From Actinomycetes bacterium (GTDB taxonomy: Bacteria; Actinomycetota; Acidimicrobiia; Acidimicrobiales; Ilumatobacteraceae): a stretch of 64,000 bases of DNA. A program made the position numbers and the translations under genes. Shown piece by piece: positions 27,219 through 35,754 of this stretch; the first letter of the stretch is position 1; every line of letters begins with the position of its first letter. The notes beneath the pieces were generated by a model. It had not been told where the DNA came from and made no database searches. It saw nothing but the letters and a program-made list of their open reading frames with translations. The stretch spans positions 62,001-126,000 of the forward strand of contig JANYCT010000040.1 of NCBI GenBank assembly GCA_025360105.1. The letters run 5' to 3'.

Positions 27219-28049
27219 TCAGCGTGGCAAGCGGGTGAGGGACACCGAAACGTGGATCTCGCGTCCGCGGCCGCCGGTGAAGATCCCGCTCATCGGACTC
27301 ACGTCGTGGTAGTCGCGGCCGCGTGCCACGACGATGTGTTGCTCGCCGACCTCACGACCGTTCGTGGGATCGATCGGGTGCCAGTAGCCAACCCATGCCT
27401 CGACCCACGAGTGTGATTCACCAATGATCGTCTCGCCGATCTCGCCGCTTCCGGAGTAGAGATACCCCGAGACGTAACGCGCCGGAATGCCGGCCGAGCG
27501 AAGAATCGAGAGCATGATGTTCGTGTAGTCCTGACAGACCCCGCGCCCGCTCTCCCACGCCTGACTCGCCGGGGTGAAGACATGTGTAGCGCCGGGCCAA
27601 TACTCGACCCGCTGGCCGATGAGTACGGCGAGGCCCTCGACGGCGTCGCGCGGCGTGGCATACGCGCGCATGTCGTAGCCGTGTGGGACGGCATCGATGA
27701 GCTTTGTGAGCGGCAGATACTCACAATAGTCGTCGAGCACCTGCGCCGACGCAAGGTCGCCCCATGCGGCCGACTCCTGGGGAGTGCTGGTGGAGTACGA
27801 GTCAACGAGGCTTTCGACGATCACGCTCAGGCTCATGTGCGGCGTCTGCAGATCGAACGACTGCACCGTCGTCCCCCAGTAGTCGCGGTACGTGAAAATG
27901 GGCGCGGTTGGGCCAACGCTCGTGCGGTGCTGAATGAGGATCTGATGTTCGTCGGTCAAGGGCGTCATACGTAGTTCGTTGAACGACGCGTGCACCTCGG
28001 ATTCATAGACGTAGGTGGTGTGGTGAACCACCTCGAGCCGCCACGCCAT
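27219..28049 (-). CDS. Transglutaminase-like protease-fold protein
   Basis: A 276-residue protein with an N-terminal beta region (bacterial transglutaminase N-domain) and the catalytic triad context: Cys in GVCQDYTNIML, His in ESHSWVEAW and Asp in HPIDPTNGR. It is the standard third member of the ATP-grasp/alpha-E/transglutaminase operon found in many bacteria, proposed on comparative-genomic grounds to make or modify small peptides; no reaction is established. Its start overlaps the stop of the alpha-E gene, so all three genes are coupled. Confidence 0.9.
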   Translation of the reverse strand: MAWRLEVVHHTTYVYESEVHASFNELRMTPLTDEHQILIQHRTSVGPTAPIFTYRDYWGTTVQSFDLQTPHMSLSVIVESLVDSYSTSTPQESAAWGDLASAQVLDDYCEYLPLTKLIDAVPHGYDMRAYATPRDAVEGLAVLIGQRVEYWPGATHVFTPASQAWESGRGVCQDYTNIMLSILRSAGIPARYVSGYLYSGSGEIGETIIGESHSWVEAWVGYWHPIDPTNGREVGEQHIVVARGRDYHDVSPMSGIFTGGRGREIHVSVSLTRLPR

Positions 28050-28954
28050 CAGTGGCTCCAGACGATCGAGCCAACGGGCCGAAAGAACTGATTGCGCGTT
28101 CCGACGCTGGTGTTCGCAACGGCGCGGATGGATTGACCGACCAGATGCTCGACCCGCGCGTCATCGATGGTGGCCGACGAGTACGTCAACTCACTGCGCA
28201 GCAGTCCGATCGACTGCACCAACTCATCGACGCGTGTGGACGTCGCCATCGCGATTTCCTTGATGGCCTCCTCGCTGCGTACCGCGCTGTGCAGCAGCGA
28301 GCGAGGAAAGACCGAGTCGGTCACCAGGAATGCCCGCACCCTGTCGGCGGTGAGGGGCACGTGCCCTCGCAGGAAAGTGCTGAGTCCTCCGACGGCGCGC
28401 AACATCGTTGCCGGACCCTGATCGGGCCACATCCGCTCGACATGCATATTGAGCATTCGGCTGACGATGTCGAGTCGCTCAAGCGACATTCCGAGGTTGA
28501 AGAATGATCTCGCCTCGTCGCGCGGGGCTATCCAGTCGAACACGCCCTGCACACCGGCAAGGCTTTCCAGAAAGCCGCGGAGCGTGCCGCCGGGTGAGCG
28601 TGGATCAGGCCGCTCGCTCGCGGTTCGAAGGTATGCCTTGTTGAGCGTCTCGAAAAAGTCGGCGGGTATCGAGTCGCGAATGGATCGAGCGTTGTTGCGC
28701 GCAGCAGTGAGGGCCCCAACGATGGTGCTGGGTGACTCTGCCGATCCGTAGACGACAAGCACCAGCTCTGCCGGCGTGGTTGCCTTCTCGGTGAGGCCGA
28801 ACCGCTCGGTGAGCAGGTCACATCCGCGAGCCGGGTCATTGCGGTGTTCCTGCACGATCAGCTGGTGGTGTTCGATCAAGAGTCGTGTCGTGCCCTCGGC
28901 GCGCTCGAGATACCGACCCATCCAGAAGTACGACTCGGCCAGCCGACTCAGCAT
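28049..28954 (-). CDS. Alpha-E domain protein (DUF403)
   Basis: A 301-residue, mainly helical protein beginning MLSRLAESYFWMGRYLERAE, the conserved opening of the DUF403/alpha-E family. Members are always found with, or fused to, circularly permuted ATP-grasp proteins. The conserved acidic and Arg residues of the first helix are present. Function is unknown. It overlaps the upstream ATP-grasp gene by seven bases and the downstream transglutaminase gene by one base. Confidence 0.9.
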   Translation of the reverse strand: MLSRLAESYFWMGRYLERAEGTTRLLIEHHQLIVQEHRNDPARGCDLLTERFGLTEKATTPAELVLVVYGSAESPSTIVGALTAARNNARSIRDSIPADFFETLNKAYLRTASERPDPRSPGGTLRGFLESLAGVQGVFDWIAPRDEARSFFNLGMSLERLDIVSRMLNMHVERMWPDQGPATMLRAVGGLSTFLRGHVPLTADRVRAFLVTDSVFPRSLLHSAVRSEEAIKEIAMATSTRVDELVQSIGLLRSELTYSSATIDDARVEHLVGQSIRAVANTSVGTRNQFFRPVGSIVWSH

Positions 28955-30606
28955 GGCGGCACCTCCGTGGACGCTTCACGTTGTTGCTGTTGCTGTTGCT
29001 GCTGTTGCTGCTGTTGCTGCTGTTGCTGCTGCTCCTCCTGCTGGCGTAGCCGGTTGAAGGGCAGTACGTCGGGGCCGTGCTCGCGTGGGATGTCCTCGAT
29101 CTCATCGACGCTTTCGACGGCAGCGGACCGAATGATTGATGATGTGTCGTCGATCTCAGCATCGCCATCACCGATCTCGGTGAGCACCCATGTGTCCTTG
29201 GTGCCACCGCCCTGACTGGAGTTAACGACGAGGCTGCCCTCCACGAGAGCGACGCGCGTCAACCCGCCCGGCAACACCCAGATGCCATCGCCCTGATTGA
29301 CCGCAAATGGTCGAAGGTCGACGTGTCGACCAGCGAGCGTGCCATCGTCGAGCACCGTTGGGCATGTCGACAGGCCAACAACTGGTTGTGCAATCCACCC
29401 CCGGGGATCTGCCTTGATCTCGTGCATCACCGTGACGAGTTCCTCGTCGGTCGCGCGCGGTCCGATGACGATGCCGTATCCACCTGAGCCGGCTACCGGC
29501 TTGACCACCATCTCGTTGATGTTGTCGAGCACATGATGCATGGCCTCGGGATCTTGCAGATCGTAGGTTTGCACGTTCGGCAGGATCGGCTCCTCGTTGA
29601 GGTAGTAGCGGATCATGGTGGGCACATACGGATACAGACCCTTGTCGTCGGCCACACCGTTGCCGATGCCGTTGGCGATGGTCACGTTGCCGGCTCGCGC
29701 TGCGTTCACGAGGCCGGGCACACCAAGCACACTGTCGGGGAGGAAGTGCACGGGATCGAGGAAGTCGTCGTCGATGCGGCGATAGATCACATGCACCGGT
29801 TCTGCGCTACGCGTCGTGCGCATGAACAGCGCATTCCCTTTGCAGAACAGGTCACGTCCCTCGACCAACTCGACGCCCATCCGTCGAGCGAGGAAGGCGT
29901 GCTCGAAATGTGCCGAGTTGTGTACGCCAGGTGTCAACACCGCAACGGTTGGGTAGCGCACCCCCGATGGAGCCGATGCCTTCAGCGCGGTCAGCAACTG
30001 TTCGGGATACTCCTGAATCGATCGCACCGAGTAGGCCGAGAACAACTCAGGCACCACGTGCCCGAGGGTGCGCCGGTTTTCCATCACGTAACTCACGCCA
30101 GACGGGCAACGCAGATTGTCTTCGAGGACGCGGAAGACGCCCGCGCCATCGCGCACGAGGTCGATGCCGGCGACGTGCACCCGTACGCCGTTCGGCGGGC
30201 GAAGTTCGTGAGCGCAACGGTGGTAGTGCTCCGAACTGGTGACCAGCGCCTTGGGCACAATCCGGTCGGCAATGATCTTCTGTCGCCCGTACACATCGTC
30301 GAGGAACATCTCGAGAGCCTTCACCCGTTGGATGATTCCAGCCTCGATGCCCGTCCATTCCCCTGCGCCGATGACTCGGGGGACCAAGTCCACCGGCAGC
30401 GGCCGCTCTCGGCCTGACAACGTAAAGGTGATGCCCTGCATCGATAGATACGCGTCGCGTTGGAGGCCTCGCTTGACCAAGCCATCGCGCCCTATCGATT
30501 GCAAGGTATCCCACAGCTGTTCGATACCGACTCGAGGGGTTTCGCCATCGAGGAGCTCATCGACAAATTGCACGCCTTGTGTGTACCCCTGTTGTGTTTC
30601 GTGCAT
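28948..30606 (-). CDS. Circularly permuted ATP-grasp protein (DUF404/DUF407) with C-terminal polyglutamine
   Basis: A 552-residue protein with the permuted ATP-grasp fold. It has VRVHVAGIDLVRDGAGVF and EDNLRCPSGVSYVMENR in the first half, and the nucleotide loop GSGGYGIVIGP in the second. The family is predicted to ligate amino acids or peptides using ATP. The C-terminal tail is unusual: after an EE pair it has 17 consecutive glutamines and then a short REASTEVPPC end. The ATG at 30606 follows TACGAT (complement of 30615-30620) by eight bases, so it heads a leaderless three-gene operon. Confidence 0.9.
   Translation of the reverse strand: MHETQQGYTQGVQFVDELLDGETPRVGIEQLWDTLQSIGRDGLVKRGLQRDAYLSMQGITFTLSGRERPLPVDLVPRVIGAGEWTGIEAGIIQRVKALEMFLDDVYGRQKIIADRIVPKALVTSSEHYHRCAHELRPPNGVRVHVAGIDLVRDGAGVFRVLEDNLRCPSGVSYVMENRRTLGHVVPELFSAYSVRSIQEYPEQLLTALKASAPSGVRYPTVAVLTPGVHNSAHFEHAFLARRMGVELVEGRDLFCKGNALFMRTTRSAEPVHVIYRRIDDDFLDPVHFLPDSVLGVPGLVNAARAGNVTIANGIGNGVADDKGLYPYVPTMIRYYLNEEPILPNVQTYDLQDPEAMHHVLDNINEMVVKPVAGSGGYGIVIGPRATDEELVTVMHEIKADPRGWIAQPVVGLSTCPTVLDDGTLAGRHVDLRPFAVNQGDGIWVLPGGLTRVALVEGSLVVNSSQGGGTKDTWVLTEIGDGDAEIDDTSSIIRSAAVESVDEIEDIPREHGPDVLPFNRLRQQEEQQQQQQQQQQQQQQQQQREASTEVPPC
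28981..29031 (-). repeat. CAG/CAA tract encoding 17 glutamines
   Basis: Seventeen consecutive glutamine codons on the minus strand, ten CAG and seven CAA, largely in a nine-base CAACAGCAG rhythm. It lies near the 3' end of the ATP-grasp gene, next to the start of the alpha-E gene. Length changes would stay in frame. Confidence 0.95.
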
Positions 30607-31005: not shown

Positions 31006-31482
31006 ATGACCATCGCAACGAGCGTGCACAGAGACGAGGTGCCAGGTCGCGCTCAGCGCGATCAGGGCTTCAGCATTGTGGAGCTCGTGGTGACAATTGG
31101 GATCCTGGGCGTGTTGATTGCCCCGCTGATGTCGGCCGCGATTGCATCAATTCGAGCGTCGTCGTCGACTCGGAATCTGGCCCAGGTGCAGACGGTCTTG
31201 CAGAACGCAGCCGACCGCGTGAACCGTGCCCCGAAGGGTTGCGACTACACCGTGTATGCACAAGCAGCAGCCCAGTCTCAGGGCTGGGCTGCTGGCCAAG
31301 CCACCATCGTTCAGTCGCGCTATGTGCCTGGATCGACACCGGCGGCCGCAGGTAGCTGGGTCAGCGGCGCGTGCTCGGGTCTCGTTCCCGACGCATTGCT
31401 CGTGCAAGTGGTCACCGTGACGGTGACAAGTCCCGATGGTTCAACCAAAAGTTCCGTACAGGTGGTGAAGAGTGATATCTGA
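31006..31482 (+). CDS. Prepilin-like protein (type IV pilin/pseudopilin, PilV/minor-pilin type)
   Basis: A 158-residue protein with a class III prepilin signal. A charged leader of 21 residues ends in glycine, followed by FSIVELVVTIGILGVLIAP. Cleavage is expected between Gly21 and Phe22, leaving the conserved glutamate at mature position 5 and a hydrophobic helix. The rest is a small globular domain with two cysteines. It is first of three overlapping genes (it overlaps the next by 11 bases) with the order of minor-pilin cassettes. No strong ribosome-binding site is visible. Confidence 0.86.
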   Translation: MTIATSVHRDEVPGRAQRDQGFSIVELVVTIGILGVLIAPLMSAAIASIRASSSTRNLAQVQTVLQNAADRVNRAPKGCDYTVYAQAAAQSQGWAAGQATIVQSRYVPGSTPAAAGSWVSGACSGLVPDALLVQVVTVTVTSPDGSTKSSVQVVKSDI

Positions 31483-34303
31483 CCAAACACATTCGCGTCG
31501 TGACGACGGGATCAGCCTCGTCGAGATCGTGATCGGAGTGGCGATCTTCGGAATGATCATGTCGTCGTTGGCCTTCGCGATCATTACCATCGCCCGCCAG
31601 AACCCGAACACCACGGGTCGACTGAACAACGCCCGATCTGAGGAGGGCGTTGGACTCTGGATGCCCGCAGATCTTTCATCGGCACAAACGGTGAGCGTGC
31701 TGCCCGGCGCATCGCCGTGCAGCCCGAACTGCCCCGTTGGCCTGAATGTCGGTGGTTCGAACGCGCTCATGCTTACATGGACCACCCAAGATGCGGGCTC
31801 AACGTCAGCGGTCACCACCACCACCACCGTGTCCTATCGCTACGTGCAGGTCGGCACCGAGTGGCAGATCATCCGTGTCAAGTGCGTCAGCATCGCTGGA
31901 GGCGCTCCAACGTGTTCGTCCGCCGTTGTGTTGCACAATCTCGATGCGCCACCGGATGGTCAGACCTGGATACCAGGCACCACCGTTCCGAGTTGGGTTA
32001 TCCAGGTGAGCCAACCCCTCGATCCTGCGGACCCAGGTACTACAGGCACAACGATTCTGGCGAACCCGGCCACGTCGAAGAACGCGCAGCGTGTGCTTGT
32101 AACCATCAATGGTGGCGGCAATGCGGCCGGCGCGGGCGGTGGTCAGAACCAGATCAGCCTCAGCGCGGGCGGCACGAACCGCAAGACGATCGATGCTGCG
32201 AGCCTGAATGGAACTCCGACATTCAGTCAAACGCAGTCCCGCTGCGGCGGCAATATCGTTCTCATCGTCGATACCTCCGGGTCGATCGGCGCCTCGTCGA
32301 TGACCTCCATCAGAAACGCAATCAGCAGCTTCATTGACAAGTTCGAGGGCACCCCTGTGAAGCTCGAGCTGGTCACGTTCAGCACGAAGGCAACCGTGCT
32401 CGGCACGTCCGGTTGGACCCGCTACTTCGACATGTTGAACGCCGCCGACGTTGCGACGCTGCGCAGCGCCTTGTCTTCGCTGGTGTCGAGCGGTTCCACG
32501 AACTACGAAGACGCCTGGTATCGCACGTTCTTCAATACCGACGGTACGACTCAGAGCATCATCCCCGACCTGGTCGTGATGTTCACCGACGGTATCCCCA
32601 ACTACAGCCGTCTGAACGCCACGAACGCGACTGGACCCACGTTGCCGCCTGCGGCCCTGGTTGGGTACCCGGCTGCAAACGGCAGCGCATACAACCAGGA
32701 GGCCTTCTATCGCGCCAACGAAATTGCTCGCCTGTTCCGGTCAACCGTGAAGTTCATCGGTGTGGGCGTTGGCACCGAGATCGCAGGCACGTCATCGTGG
32801 ATCAACAGCGTGTTGGGTTGGCACTACACCTACCAGAGGGGCTACCAACCAGTTCTCCAGCGCAGTTTCCATTATCAGCGGAACTTCCATTATCAGCGGA
32901 GCTTTCACTACCAGCGGAGCTTTCACTACCAGCGCAGTTTCCATTATCAGCGCAGTTTCCATTATCAGCGCAGTTTCCATTATCAGCGCAGTTTCCATTA
33001 TCAGCGGAGCTTTCACTATCAGCGCAGTTACCACTACCAGGCCAAGGTGAGTGGCACCTGGACAACCATGCTGCCGACCGACCCGAGGTATACGAGCTCC
33101 AGCAATGGCAACAAGCGCACGGTCTACGAGGCAGCGCTCAACAACAGCTTCGACTTCTGGGATGCCGACACGACGCTGGCCAACTACAACGCAGCAGTCA
33201 CAAACGGGCGGCGCATCACATTCGAAGCAGCGTCGGGAAGCAACGACTTCTGGGAGGCCAACACCACCTTGGCGCTCTACAACGCTGCGGTGTCCACCGG
33301 TCGCCGCATCACCTACGAGGCGACGTCGGGAACCAACGACTTCTGGGAGACCGACACGACGCTCGCGCTCTACAACGCCGCTGTGTCCACGGGTCGCCGC
33401 ATCACGTACGAGGCGTCCACCGGCTCGAACGACAACTGGGAGGCCAGCACCACTCTGGCGTTGTACAACGCGGCCGTGTCAGGCGGCAGGCGTATTGCAT
33501 ATGGCGTGCCCACTGGGACAAATGACTACTGGGAAGACACCACGCAAGCGCTGTTCAACGTGGGGAACACGACGAGCGACGAGACCGATGGTTGGCGAGA
33601 CAGGCTGTACGCGGCACCGTACGTAGCCTGGGAGAACACCACCCTGACGTTGTACAACGCGAACAACACAACAGCCGACTCGACCGATGGCTGGCAGGTC
33701 ATTCAGGACTACTCGTTGCCGTTCGACAGCTTTACCACCAACAGCGTGACCACCAACAACAGCACGATTCTGACTCGGTTGATCGCAGGTAACGACTATG
33801 GCGTGTCGGCCATATTGTCGGCTGGTGCATACACCAACGCAGCGCAGGCAAACATGTACGTCATGCCGGACTACACGGCGCTGCCCGCCGCGTTGCAGGC
33901 GGTGGCCCTCTCGCAGTGCGGCGGCACGATCACGCTGCAGACCAAGGTTGGCACCAGCGCAGCCGCGGACCCGTTCACCTACCAGAACACGGCGACGAAG
34001 GACTCGAACGGTACTGCAATCAACATGGGTCAGAACGCGGTGACGACGTCGGCGCAGTTCACGAGCGGCACGTTGGACTTCTCGATCCCGAGCGGTCAGT
34101 ACCTCACCGTCGACATCCAGCCACAGAATCTTTCGGTGCTCACCGGCTACAACCCGTCGAGTTGGTCGTGCAAAGCCGGCCCGAATACGCGTACCTTCAC
34201 GACGATTCCGATCGCCGGGACCACGTGGACAGGTATCCGGGTGCAGGTCGCGGCGAACGAGGCGGTCTCGTGTATCCAAACCGTCACCCGTGTGACGCCA
34301 TGA
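31472..34303 (+). CDS. Giant prepilin-like protein with vWA domain, tandem repeats and prealbumin/SpaA-like tail
   Basis: 943 residues. Residues 1-40 are a prepilin signal: Gly13, then ISLVEIVIGVAIFG, with Glu at mature position 5 as in PilW-type minor pilins. Residues about 260-450 form a von Willebrand A domain with the MIDAS motif DTSGS at 267-271 and a second ligand loop in FTDG (Asp373). Residues 464-523 are ten copies of RSFHYQ or close variants, and residues 548 onward are 31-residue repeats. After about residue 790 a segment resembling the last vWA strand/helix (MPDYTALPAALQAVA) leads into QCGGTITLQTKV, a prealbumin/SpaA-like domain to the C-terminus. I infer a pilus- or surface-anchored adhesin; it combines roles usually split between PilW and PilY1. 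The repeat array seems inserted in the vWA domain. Confidence 0.85.
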   Translation: MISDQTHSRRDDGISLVEIVIGVAIFGMIMSSLAFAIITIARQNPNTTGRLNNARSEEGVGLWMPADLSSAQTVSVLPGASPCSPNCPVGLNVGGSNALMLTWTTQDAGSTSAVTTTTTVSYRYVQVGTEWQIIRVKCVSIAGGAPTCSSAVVLHNLDAPPDGQTWIPGTTVPSWVIQVSQPLDPADPGTTGTTILANPATSKNAQRVLVTINGGGNAAGAGGGQNQISLSAGGTNRKTIDAASLNGTPTFSQTQSRCGGNIVLIVDTSGSIGASSMTSIRNAISSFIDKFEGTPVKLELVTFSTKATVLGTSGWTRYFDMLNAADVATLRSALSSLVSSGSTNYEDAWYRTFFNTDGTTQSIIPDLVVMFTDGIPNYSRLNATNATGPTLPPAALVGYPAANGSAYNQEAFYRANEIARLFRSTVKFIGVGVGTEIAGTSSWINSVLGWHYTYQRGYQPVLQRSFHYQRNFHYQRSFHYQRSFHYQRSFHYQRSFHYQRSFHYQRSFHYQRSFHYQRSYHYQAKVSGTWTTMLPTDPRYTSSSNGNKRTVYEAALNNSFDFWDADTTLANYNAAVTNGRRITFEAASGSNDFWEANTTLALYNAAVSTGRRITYEATSGTNDFWETDTTLALYNAAVSTGRRITYEASTGSNDNWEASTTLALYNAAVSGGRRIAYGVPTGTNDYWEDTTQALFNVGNTTSDETDGWRDRLYAAPYVAWENTTLTLYNANNTTADSTDGWQVIQDYSLPFDSFTTNSVTTNNSTILTRLIAGNDYGVSAILSAGAYTNAAQANMYVMPDYTALPAALQAVALSQCGGTITLQTKVGTSAAADPFTYQNTATKDSNGTAINMGQNAVTTSAQFTSGTLDFSIPSGQYLTVDIQPQNLSVLTGYNPSSWSCKAGPNTRTFTTIPIAGTTWTGIRVQVAANEAVSCIQTVTRVTP
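32861..33040 (+). repeat. Ten tandem 18-bp units encoding RSFHYQ
   Basis: Ten contiguous 18-base units without spacers. Units 1, 5, 6, 7 and 8 are identical (CGCAGTTTCCATTATCAG). Units 3 and 4 are identical to each other (CGGAGCTTTCACTACCAG). Unit 9 is a hybrid. Differences between the two unit types are all synonymous; only unit 2 (Ser to Asn) and unit 10 (Phe to Tyr) change the peptide. The unit length keeps the reading frame when copies are gained or lost. Confidence 0.97.
33113..33580 (+). repeat. Tandem 93-bp units encoding a 31-residue repeat
   Basis: Three full units of exactly 93 bases (33209-33301, 33302-33394, 33395-33487) start with RRIT[FY]EA and contain DFWE or DNWE, then TTLALYNAAVS. 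A diverged first copy (33113-33208, 96 bases) and a decaying copy after 33488 flank them. The units are clearly related but much more diverged at DNA level than the 18-bp array, so this array is older. Confidence 0.9.
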
Positions 34304-35754
34304 TTCGTCGCGGCGCACCACGGGCCCGGGCAGGGCGAACCGACGACGGGTCCGCACTGGTCCTTGCCTTGGTCATGGTGCTCGTGTGTTCCTTGGTGGT
34401 TCTACCGGTACTCACGTACGCAATTGCGGTCACGCGGTCGACCCGCGTCCTGCAATCGAAGTCGGTGTCGGTCGAGGCGGCAAAGGGTGGGCTGCGGACC
34501 ACACTCGCGGATCCGATATCGCTGTACAAGACGTGCGACCTGGCCGGGCTCACCGTCTCGGTCTCGCTTGCCTCGCCGGGGCTCACTACGCCGGTCACGA
34601 ACAAGTGCTACAAGATGAGCGATGTCCAGGCGCAGGACCCCACCAGCCTGCGTTACGCCATAGCGGCCACACAGGTGGGCGCTACGCTGCCGACCGGTTA
34701 TAGCGGGTTGGCCTATCCGGGCTCGGGAGGAACGCCAGAGAACGCGTGGCAGAACGCCGATTCGCTGACATCGACGTTCAACACCATCTGGGCGCCGTAT
34801 CTGCCGGTTCACGGTCTCAACCAGCGCTCTGCAACCCCCTACTCGATGCCGAGCGGCTTCCCGACATGCTCGGTCTACTTCCCCGGCACGTACAAGGATC
34901 CCGTGACGATCACCGGATCCACGCCGGTGTTCTTCACCTCGGGCATCTATTACTTCGAGGACCCCGTGCGTATCAGCGGCAACGCCAACGTCGTGGTTGG
35001 CGATGGCGCCACACAGGGATGCACAACGGATCAGCAGGCTGCGTTCTACGCGACCAACGCGCCGGCCACCCACAACGTCACCGGCCTCGGCGCAACCTTC
35101 GTGTTCGGCGACGCCGGTCGGCTCGTCGTCGACAACGTGACGAGCGGGACATCGCTCAGCCTCATCTTCAATCAGCGATACGTGGCACCCACCGATATCA
35201 GCTCGGCGCCCTCGGCGGGGGTGTCGATCGAGTCGGTCAACGGCGTCGCGTCGGGTTCGGACGCCATCGACCTGAGTCTGCCCGGCTACCTGTCGGTACC
35301 GCAGTCGAGTGTCGGCGGCGCAACGGTCACGCTGGCAACCGCGCAGCAATACCTGCCATCCACGCTCGTGCCCGTTTCGCCGGTGGCTCCAGCGGTGGTG
35401 CCGACGAACCCATTACCCATCGTCGATATCAACCTCAGCAACACCTCAACTGTGAAAGTAAACGTTCCCGGCTATGTGTACGTGCCGCAGGGTTTGGTGA
35501 ACGTCAATGTGTCCACTGCGGCCGCCGCCGCAAACAAGGACATCCAACTCCTCGGCGGGGCCCTGGCCGCCTCGTACACGGTGTCGGCGATCCGACCGTC
35601 TACGTTCGTGATCGGCTTGCTGAACCCCGTCATCCAAAAGGTCTTCAAGATCGTCAGCACGACGACAGGAACTCCTCCGAACATTGTCTCGACGGCCATC
35701 GTGCAGGTGAACCAGAATGGCGCCTACGCAATCAACTCCTGGGGCGTGCAATAG
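34300..35754 (+). CDS. PilX-like pilus assembly/surface protein
   Basis: A 484-residue protein whose N-terminus (DDGSALVLALVMVLVCSLVV) matches PilX-type minor pilins: a glycine-ended charged leader and a long hydrophobic helix, without glutamate at mature position 5. The long exported part is rich in Thr, Ser, Val and Gly, with beta-strand-like text such as SGIYYFEDPVRISGNANVVV, and may form a beta-helix or sandwich. It contains few cysteines. The ATG at 34300 overlaps the stop of the 943-residue gene (ATGA), so it is coupled. Longer in-frame extension upstream is the alternative frame of that gene. Confidence 0.78.
   Translation: MIRRGAPRARAGRTDDGSALVLALVMVLVCSLVVLPVLTYAIAVTRSTRVLQSKSVSVEAAKGGLRTTLADPISLYKTCDLAGLTVSVSLASPGLTTPVTNKCYKMSDVQAQDPTSLRYAIAATQVGATLPTGYSGLAYPGSGGTPENAWQNADSLTSTFNTIWAPYLPVHGLNQRSATPYSMPSGFPTCSVYFPGTYKDPVTITGSTPVFFTSGIYYFEDPVRISGNANVVVGDGATQGCTTDQQAAFYATNAPATHNVTGLGATFVFGDAGRLVVDNVTSGTSLSLIFNQRYVAPTDISSAPSAGVSIESVNGVASGSDAIDLSLPGYLSVPQSSVGGATVTLATAQQYLPSTLVPVSPVAPAVVPTNPLPIVDINLSNTSTVKVNVPGYVYVPQGLVNVNVSTAAAAANKDIQLLGGALAASYTVSAIRPSTFVIGLLNPVIQKVFKIVSTTTGTPPNIVSTAIVQVNQNGAYAINSWGVQ

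Follow-up and report, generated by a model that had tools for sequence, protein, structure and literature searches.

A modular minor pilin with a split vWA domain, a probable type IV pilus tip adhesin in the Ilumatobacteraceae

Main finding

The window analysed here is a stretch of 64,000 nucleotides from a genome of the actinobacterial family Ilumatobacteraceae, and all unprefixed positions refer to it. At 31472-34303 on the forward strand it holds a single open frame with a GTG start, encoding a protein of 943 residues. This is probably a modular minor pilin that serves as the tip adhesin of a type IV pilus (T4P). Its N-terminus is that of a prepilin, followed by a predicted vWA domain, which is interrupted by a long array of repeats, and by a predicted C-terminal beta-sandwich.

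On this reading the prepilin peptidase would remove a leader of 13 residues, after which the N-terminal helix would pack into the pilus as in any pilin. For the bulky vWA part a place at the tip or close to it would fit best, shared with the pilV-like and pilX-like partners of its operon; the S. sanguinis pilin PilB provides the precedent for such a position. On the outside, the vWA pilin would then bind a surface, a polymer or a cell with its MIDAS face and with the predicted repeat arm that emerges from the loop between beta5 and alpha6. Extension driven by the machinery protein PilB, and retraction driven by PilT, would pull the cell along.

The find extends vWA modular pilins to a mostly uncultured aquatic actinobacterial family, where the role proposed here is testable in a cultured strain that has been sequenced.

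The gene and its neighbours

The frame, which an earlier note on this DNA had picked out, is real: the protein of a sister species is 70% identical, and 60 of the 151 family genomes have matches. The gene is the middle one of a three-gene operon on the forward strand, where it takes the position of PilW. The first gene (31006-31482) encodes a pilV-like minor prepilin of 158 aa, with a Pfam N_methyl score of 24.5 bits, above the cut-off. This gene runs 11 nt into that of the vWA pilin before it reaches its stop. The stop of the vWA pilin in turn overlaps, as ATGA, with the start of the third gene (34300-35754), for a protein of 484 aa called pilX-like from its sequence and conserved homologs.

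A tRNA-Pro gene with a terminator-like stem sits directly upstream of the operon, and downstream of it there are opposite-strand genes, for unrelated amidohydrolases. A promoter scan gave no candidate. Further upstream, 28948-30606 encodes a circularly permuted ATP-grasp protein with a run of glutamine codons (28985-29043) near its C-terminus. That gene is clustered with Alpha-E and transglutaminase-like genes (27219-30606).

Nearly every homolog of the vWA pilin has a pilV-like gene directly upstream and a pilX-like gene downstream. This near-constant position is also what could be expected of an assembly or priming subunit, in which the vWA part and the arm, with the pilV-like and pilX-like partners, merely lock the tip complex. 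Minor pilins and PilY1 reportedly prime pili in other bacteria. As the main role this is unlikely: it would be odd for a part with a purely internal assembly role to keep its core constant and yet vary between 10 and 609 residues at a single site, and the vWA domain of PilB binds ligands directly (PMC8179133).

From prepilin leader to C-terminus

The leader (residues 1-13, 31472-31510) reads MISDQTHSRRDDG and is followed by ISLVE. Cleavage is expected after Gly13, which puts Glu18 at mature position 5, and both residues are invariant in 41 of 41 homologs. A hydrophilic leader with Gly or Ala as its last residue, a hydrophobic stretch and this glutamate together make up a class III signal peptide, and the protein has one. 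The Pfam N_methyl model is a closer call: the vWA pilin scores 17.3 bits in hmmscan, where the cut-off is 21.2, and 21.4 bits in the genome search. This marginal score counts against the reading as a type IV pilin tip adhesin. Among 23 homologs, 18 match the model at E <= 0.01.

The type IV pilin module, with a linker, extends to residue 255 (31511-32236). AlphaFold2, run on a 41-row alignment, predicts a helix of 55 residues (16-70) and an antiparallel pilin-like sheet with strands between 96 and 180, the long N-terminal helix and sheet that mark a pilin. The module is also covered by the VIA alignment to PilB (7b7p), which runs over residues 44-816. The PilW-like prepilin start described in the earlier note, with its glutamate at mature position 5, is thus confirmed.

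The first part of the vWA domain covers residues 256-435 (32237-32776). Pfam VWA matches residues 261-379 with E = 1.2e-10, and the DTSGS motif occupies residues 267-271, as had been claimed. The MIDAS is complete (D267, S269, S271, T343, D373) and invariant in 41/41 homologs. In the same AlphaFold2 model the vWA fold is predicted mostly at pLDDT >90. HMM searches and structure prediction had been proposed as checks in the earlier note, and these predict both the vWA fold and the prepilin helix.

The repeats then interrupt the domain, between beta5 (FIGVGVG, 427-435) and alpha6, which starts at about residue 763. The vWA fold resumes at around 758 and closes at C816; this second part (758-816, 33743-33919) holds alpha6, the last strand, the last helix and C816 itself. 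The range of 255-460 first given for the domain therefore takes in its first part and runs on into the insert, but misses the stretch from about 758 to 816. Likewise, the order of a vWA domain followed by repeats has to be revised, as the repeats lie inside the domain. An insert forming an independent domain behind the vWA was considered and dropped, because the vWA fold picks up again at about 758.

Two cysteines, C258 and C816, bracket the vWA domain and are invariant in all 41 homologs. Such a pair might make the protein a sensor of surface contact or force, and not an adhesin, with tension on the bracketed domain as the signal. Sensing has been proposed for PilY1 (PMC9210963) and for CpaL (PMC12607857). 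The cysteines could however just stabilise the ends of the domain, and sensing and adhesion are compatible, which makes sensing in place of adhesion improbable. Beside adhesion, both assembly priming and force sensing could be additional roles.

The protein ends in a beta-sandwich (residues 819-940, confidently predicted by AlphaFold2; region 33920-34303) with cysteines C900 and C934, near-invariant among the 41 homologs. The earlier note had called this a cysteine-bearing tail of the prealbumin or SpaA-like kind. The cysteines and the beta-rich domain hold up, and a prealbumin-like identity is plausible: the prealbumin-like family SpaA_4 matches just 1 of 23 homologs (E 0.008), and when the part from vWA to C-terminus of a relative was modelled, SpaC and PitA were top Foldseek matches to the model over its whole length. 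An LPXTG-type sorting signal is absent; the sequence ends in ...AVSCIQTVTRVTP (...CIQTVTRVTP), with no hydrophobic tail.

The repeat insert

Across 41 homologs the core measures 553-643 residues, against 10-609 for the insert. Even close relatives differ in insert length (332 vs 382, and 471 vs 609), and a tree built from the core without the insert calls for two switches between long and short forms. With a fixed core and a single variable loop in a presumed tip domain, the family offers a natural series on arms around a pilus-tip MIDAS.

The insert consists of two arrays. Array A (32816-33046) is made up of aromatic and His-rich strand repeats, including ten hexapeptides of the QRSFHY type encoded by 18-nt units. 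The unit is of the RSFHYQ/QRSFHY type here and of the RGYHLENF or HGYHYTYT type in other homologs. Array B (33047-33742) has about seven beta-alpha-beta repeats of 31 residues (93-nt units), of the type SPYSLWEATTEALYNANNTTADSTDGWR.

For the insert of the 943-residue protein itself AlphaFold confidence is low, with pLDDT blocks of 25-45 over residues 470-677. A relative with a cleaner alignment (L083) reaches a mean pLDDT of 86.9 over vWA, insert and C-terminal domain. In its model array A is a single strand run of 45 residues, and array B folds into five beta-alpha-beta units.

In 17 homologs the length of array A correlates with the number of units in array B (r = 0.93; r = 0.79 and p = 1.6e-4 in phylogenetic contrasts), with repeat boundaries placed by hand. 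One clade keeps to 8.7-8.9 array A residues per B unit. The 943-residue protein (77 residues for 7 units) and its sister (59 for 9) deviate from that ratio, in opposite directions. Such co-variation suggests a single composite rod built from both arrays. Tentatively, and with somewhat less than even confidence, the insert can be read as a new rod of tunable length, in which the strand of array A pairs with successive beta-alpha-beta units and both arrays lengthen or shorten jointly. It would project from the MIDAS side of the vWA domain at the pilus tip, and would provide either a reach that varies or another surface for binding.

In the established vWA topology, the MIDAS face carries the loops that come after the parallel strands at their C-terminal ends. 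The arm leaves from the loop between beta5 and alpha6, so by this topology, and not by coordinates, its start should lie near the MIDAS.

The hexapeptide units differ from each other at 0.90 synonymous and 0.026 protein-level differences per site, where it should be kept in mind that block-copied units are not independent. So many synonymous differences, with almost no protein-changing ones, speak for selection on the peptide. The same divergence makes it unlikely that the insert is sequence noise or a fresh product of slippage.

Searches with the insert against Pfam, PDB sequences and phages gave no significant match, and among 393 other actinobacterial genomes it was matched in three family members only. 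No known repeat family could thus be assigned with significance; the structure searches were swamped by the vWA domain, which leaves room for a known fold.

The longest insert (609 residues; L087:7998-11651) has an array A made up mostly of His, Tyr, Thr, Ser and Gly (HGYHYTYTHSYH...). Such a composition might bind metals or adhere to surfaces.

Pilus machinery and distribution

The genome of the vWA pilin encodes pilA, pilB, pilC, pilD and pilT in one region elsewhere. A prepilin peptidase of the A24 family is encoded in it. Within the 151 family genomes, strong homologs of the vWA pilin (best E below ~1e-30) and PilT (above the family cut-off) are found together in 40, the vWA pilin alone in 5, PilT alone in 9 and neither in 97. 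Fisher's test gives p = 2.8e-22 for this co-occurrence, a figure that ignores relatedness and is inflated by it. The distance between pilT and the vWA pilin is 2.3-4.7 kb in 13 genomes. By genomic association, that is the machinery genes and the co-occurrence and linkage with pilT, the vWA pilin would work with a T4P machine.

Type IV filaments of monoderm bacteria reportedly also serve competence, so the filament could be one for DNA uptake or secretion, with the vWA pilin capturing the substrate. This is very unlikely given the co-occurring PilT-type retraction ATPase, found above its family cut-off, and the direct precedent for a vWA adhesin.

Matches to PilM (PF11104) occur in only 4 of the 151 family genomes, though 49 have a strong PilT; this says little on absence. 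The platform in the inner membrane may have diverged or be of another kind. Similarly, no PilY1 Pfam match was found in the 151 genomes, in a search without a positive control that is weak on absence.

Across 298 genomes from the order, only this family has matches that cover the pilin part and the vWA part together; elsewhere the pilin part or the vWA domain is matched alone. The search for the same order in related bacteria that had been suggested earlier therefore succeeds within the family and, among these genomes, not beyond it. Named relatives are Ilumatobacter, Ilumatobacteraceae, and Acidimicrobiaceae/Acidimicrobiales MAGs.

One genome (G012) is putatively that of Ilumatobacter coccineum YM16-304. 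A single cluster of this genome holds pilB, pilC, pilD and pilT, and there are two homologs of the vWA pilin (pil genes and homologs at L165:3614-9586, L166:1449-3440 and L164:3014-5254). A homolog of 664 residues in I. coccineum YM16-304 carries a short insert. The I. coccineum paper states that there are no pili genes (PMC3910706); if the identification of G012 is right, that statement is corrected. By electron microscopy I. coccineum, a cultured relative, was reported to lack pili, which counts against the tip-adhesin reading (PMC3910706).

There are more minor pilins around. The genome that the window comes from has another cluster, on a contig of 3,079 bases (G000:C96, L157:172-3079), with pilA-, pilV- and pilX-like genes. 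Its PilW-like prepilin, which includes DUF7305 and He_PIG (Ig-like) parts, is a second modular pilin of this organism. In the sister species a second, tandem pilV-pilW-pilX-like cluster lies just upstream (L071:3284-7339). Its PilW-like protein of 689 aa has no Pfam match.

Comparison with known systems

Modular pilins are not new. More than 1,200 of them, in 264 architectures, have been listed, and those with vWA (IPR002035) are among the 15 commonest (PMC8179133). One of them, S. sanguinis PilB, has been crystallised: a vWA domain is grafted onto a minor pilin, and its functional MIDAS lies between two arms (PMC8179133). It binds fibronectin and fibrinogen, and modelling left the tip as the only compatible place, making it a probable tip adhesin (PMC8179133). 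Metal binding by the MIDAS of PilB was dispensable for binding both ligands, which counts against the tip-adhesin reading here (PMC8179133).

PilB 7b7p is the top Foldseek match of the whole model (E 1.2e-7). VIA aligns the two with Z 18.2 over 307 residues across pilin and vWA at an rmsd of 15.1, a high value because the modules are oriented differently, or because the orientation in the model is unsure. The vWA domain of a relative aligns to that of PilB with Z 18.8 and an rmsd of 3.0 over 200 residues. As in PilB, a pilin module is followed C-terminally by a vWA domain with a complete, canonical MIDAS and elaborated surroundings (two arms in PilB), in a monoderm T4P. The protein departs from PilB in its long repeat arm of variable length between beta5 and alpha6 and in the beta-sandwich added at its C-terminus. 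By sequence the two are weakly linked (profile match to 7b7p at E 0.049).

CpaL of Caulobacter crescentus, compared here by its published description, is likewise a minor pilin fused to a vWA domain that is split by an insert, in its case two beta-barrels (PMC12607857). CpaL however belongs to a Tad system, and its insert (204-383) sits between the MIDAS DxTxS and the later residues, before T470, projecting away from the MIDAS. In the vWA pilin described here, all MIDAS residues precede the insert. No Tad family is among the Pfam or NCBIfam matches of the vWA pilin, and the operon is of the pilV/pilX-like kind.

With these two precedents published (PMC8179133, PMC12607857), the belief that no described system has this order is refuted. 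The architecture is of a known kind, and a wholly new one is out.

PilY1 of Pseudomonas and PilC of Neisseria are also vWA adhesins or sensors, and Pseudomonas pilY1 sits beside pilV, pilW and pilX. PilY1 is, however, a separate protein and not a pilin. A fusion of PilW and PilY1, as the earlier note had it, is a fair analogy. As a statement of descent it is unsupported: nothing points to PilY1 ancestry, and the closest structural match is PilB. At E <= 0.1 Pfam finds no PilY1 beta-propeller (PF05567) in the protein, and a short beta-sandwich is predicted at its C-terminus instead.

The sortase-pilus tip adhesins SpaC, PitA and RrgA also combine an elaborated vWA domain with beta-sandwich domains. 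These three are sortase substrates. The protein described here differs from them in having a prepilin N-terminus and no sorting signal. The vWA pilin differs from the known kind in its repeat insert and where this sits, in the sandwich at its C-terminus, and in the taxonomic group that carries it.
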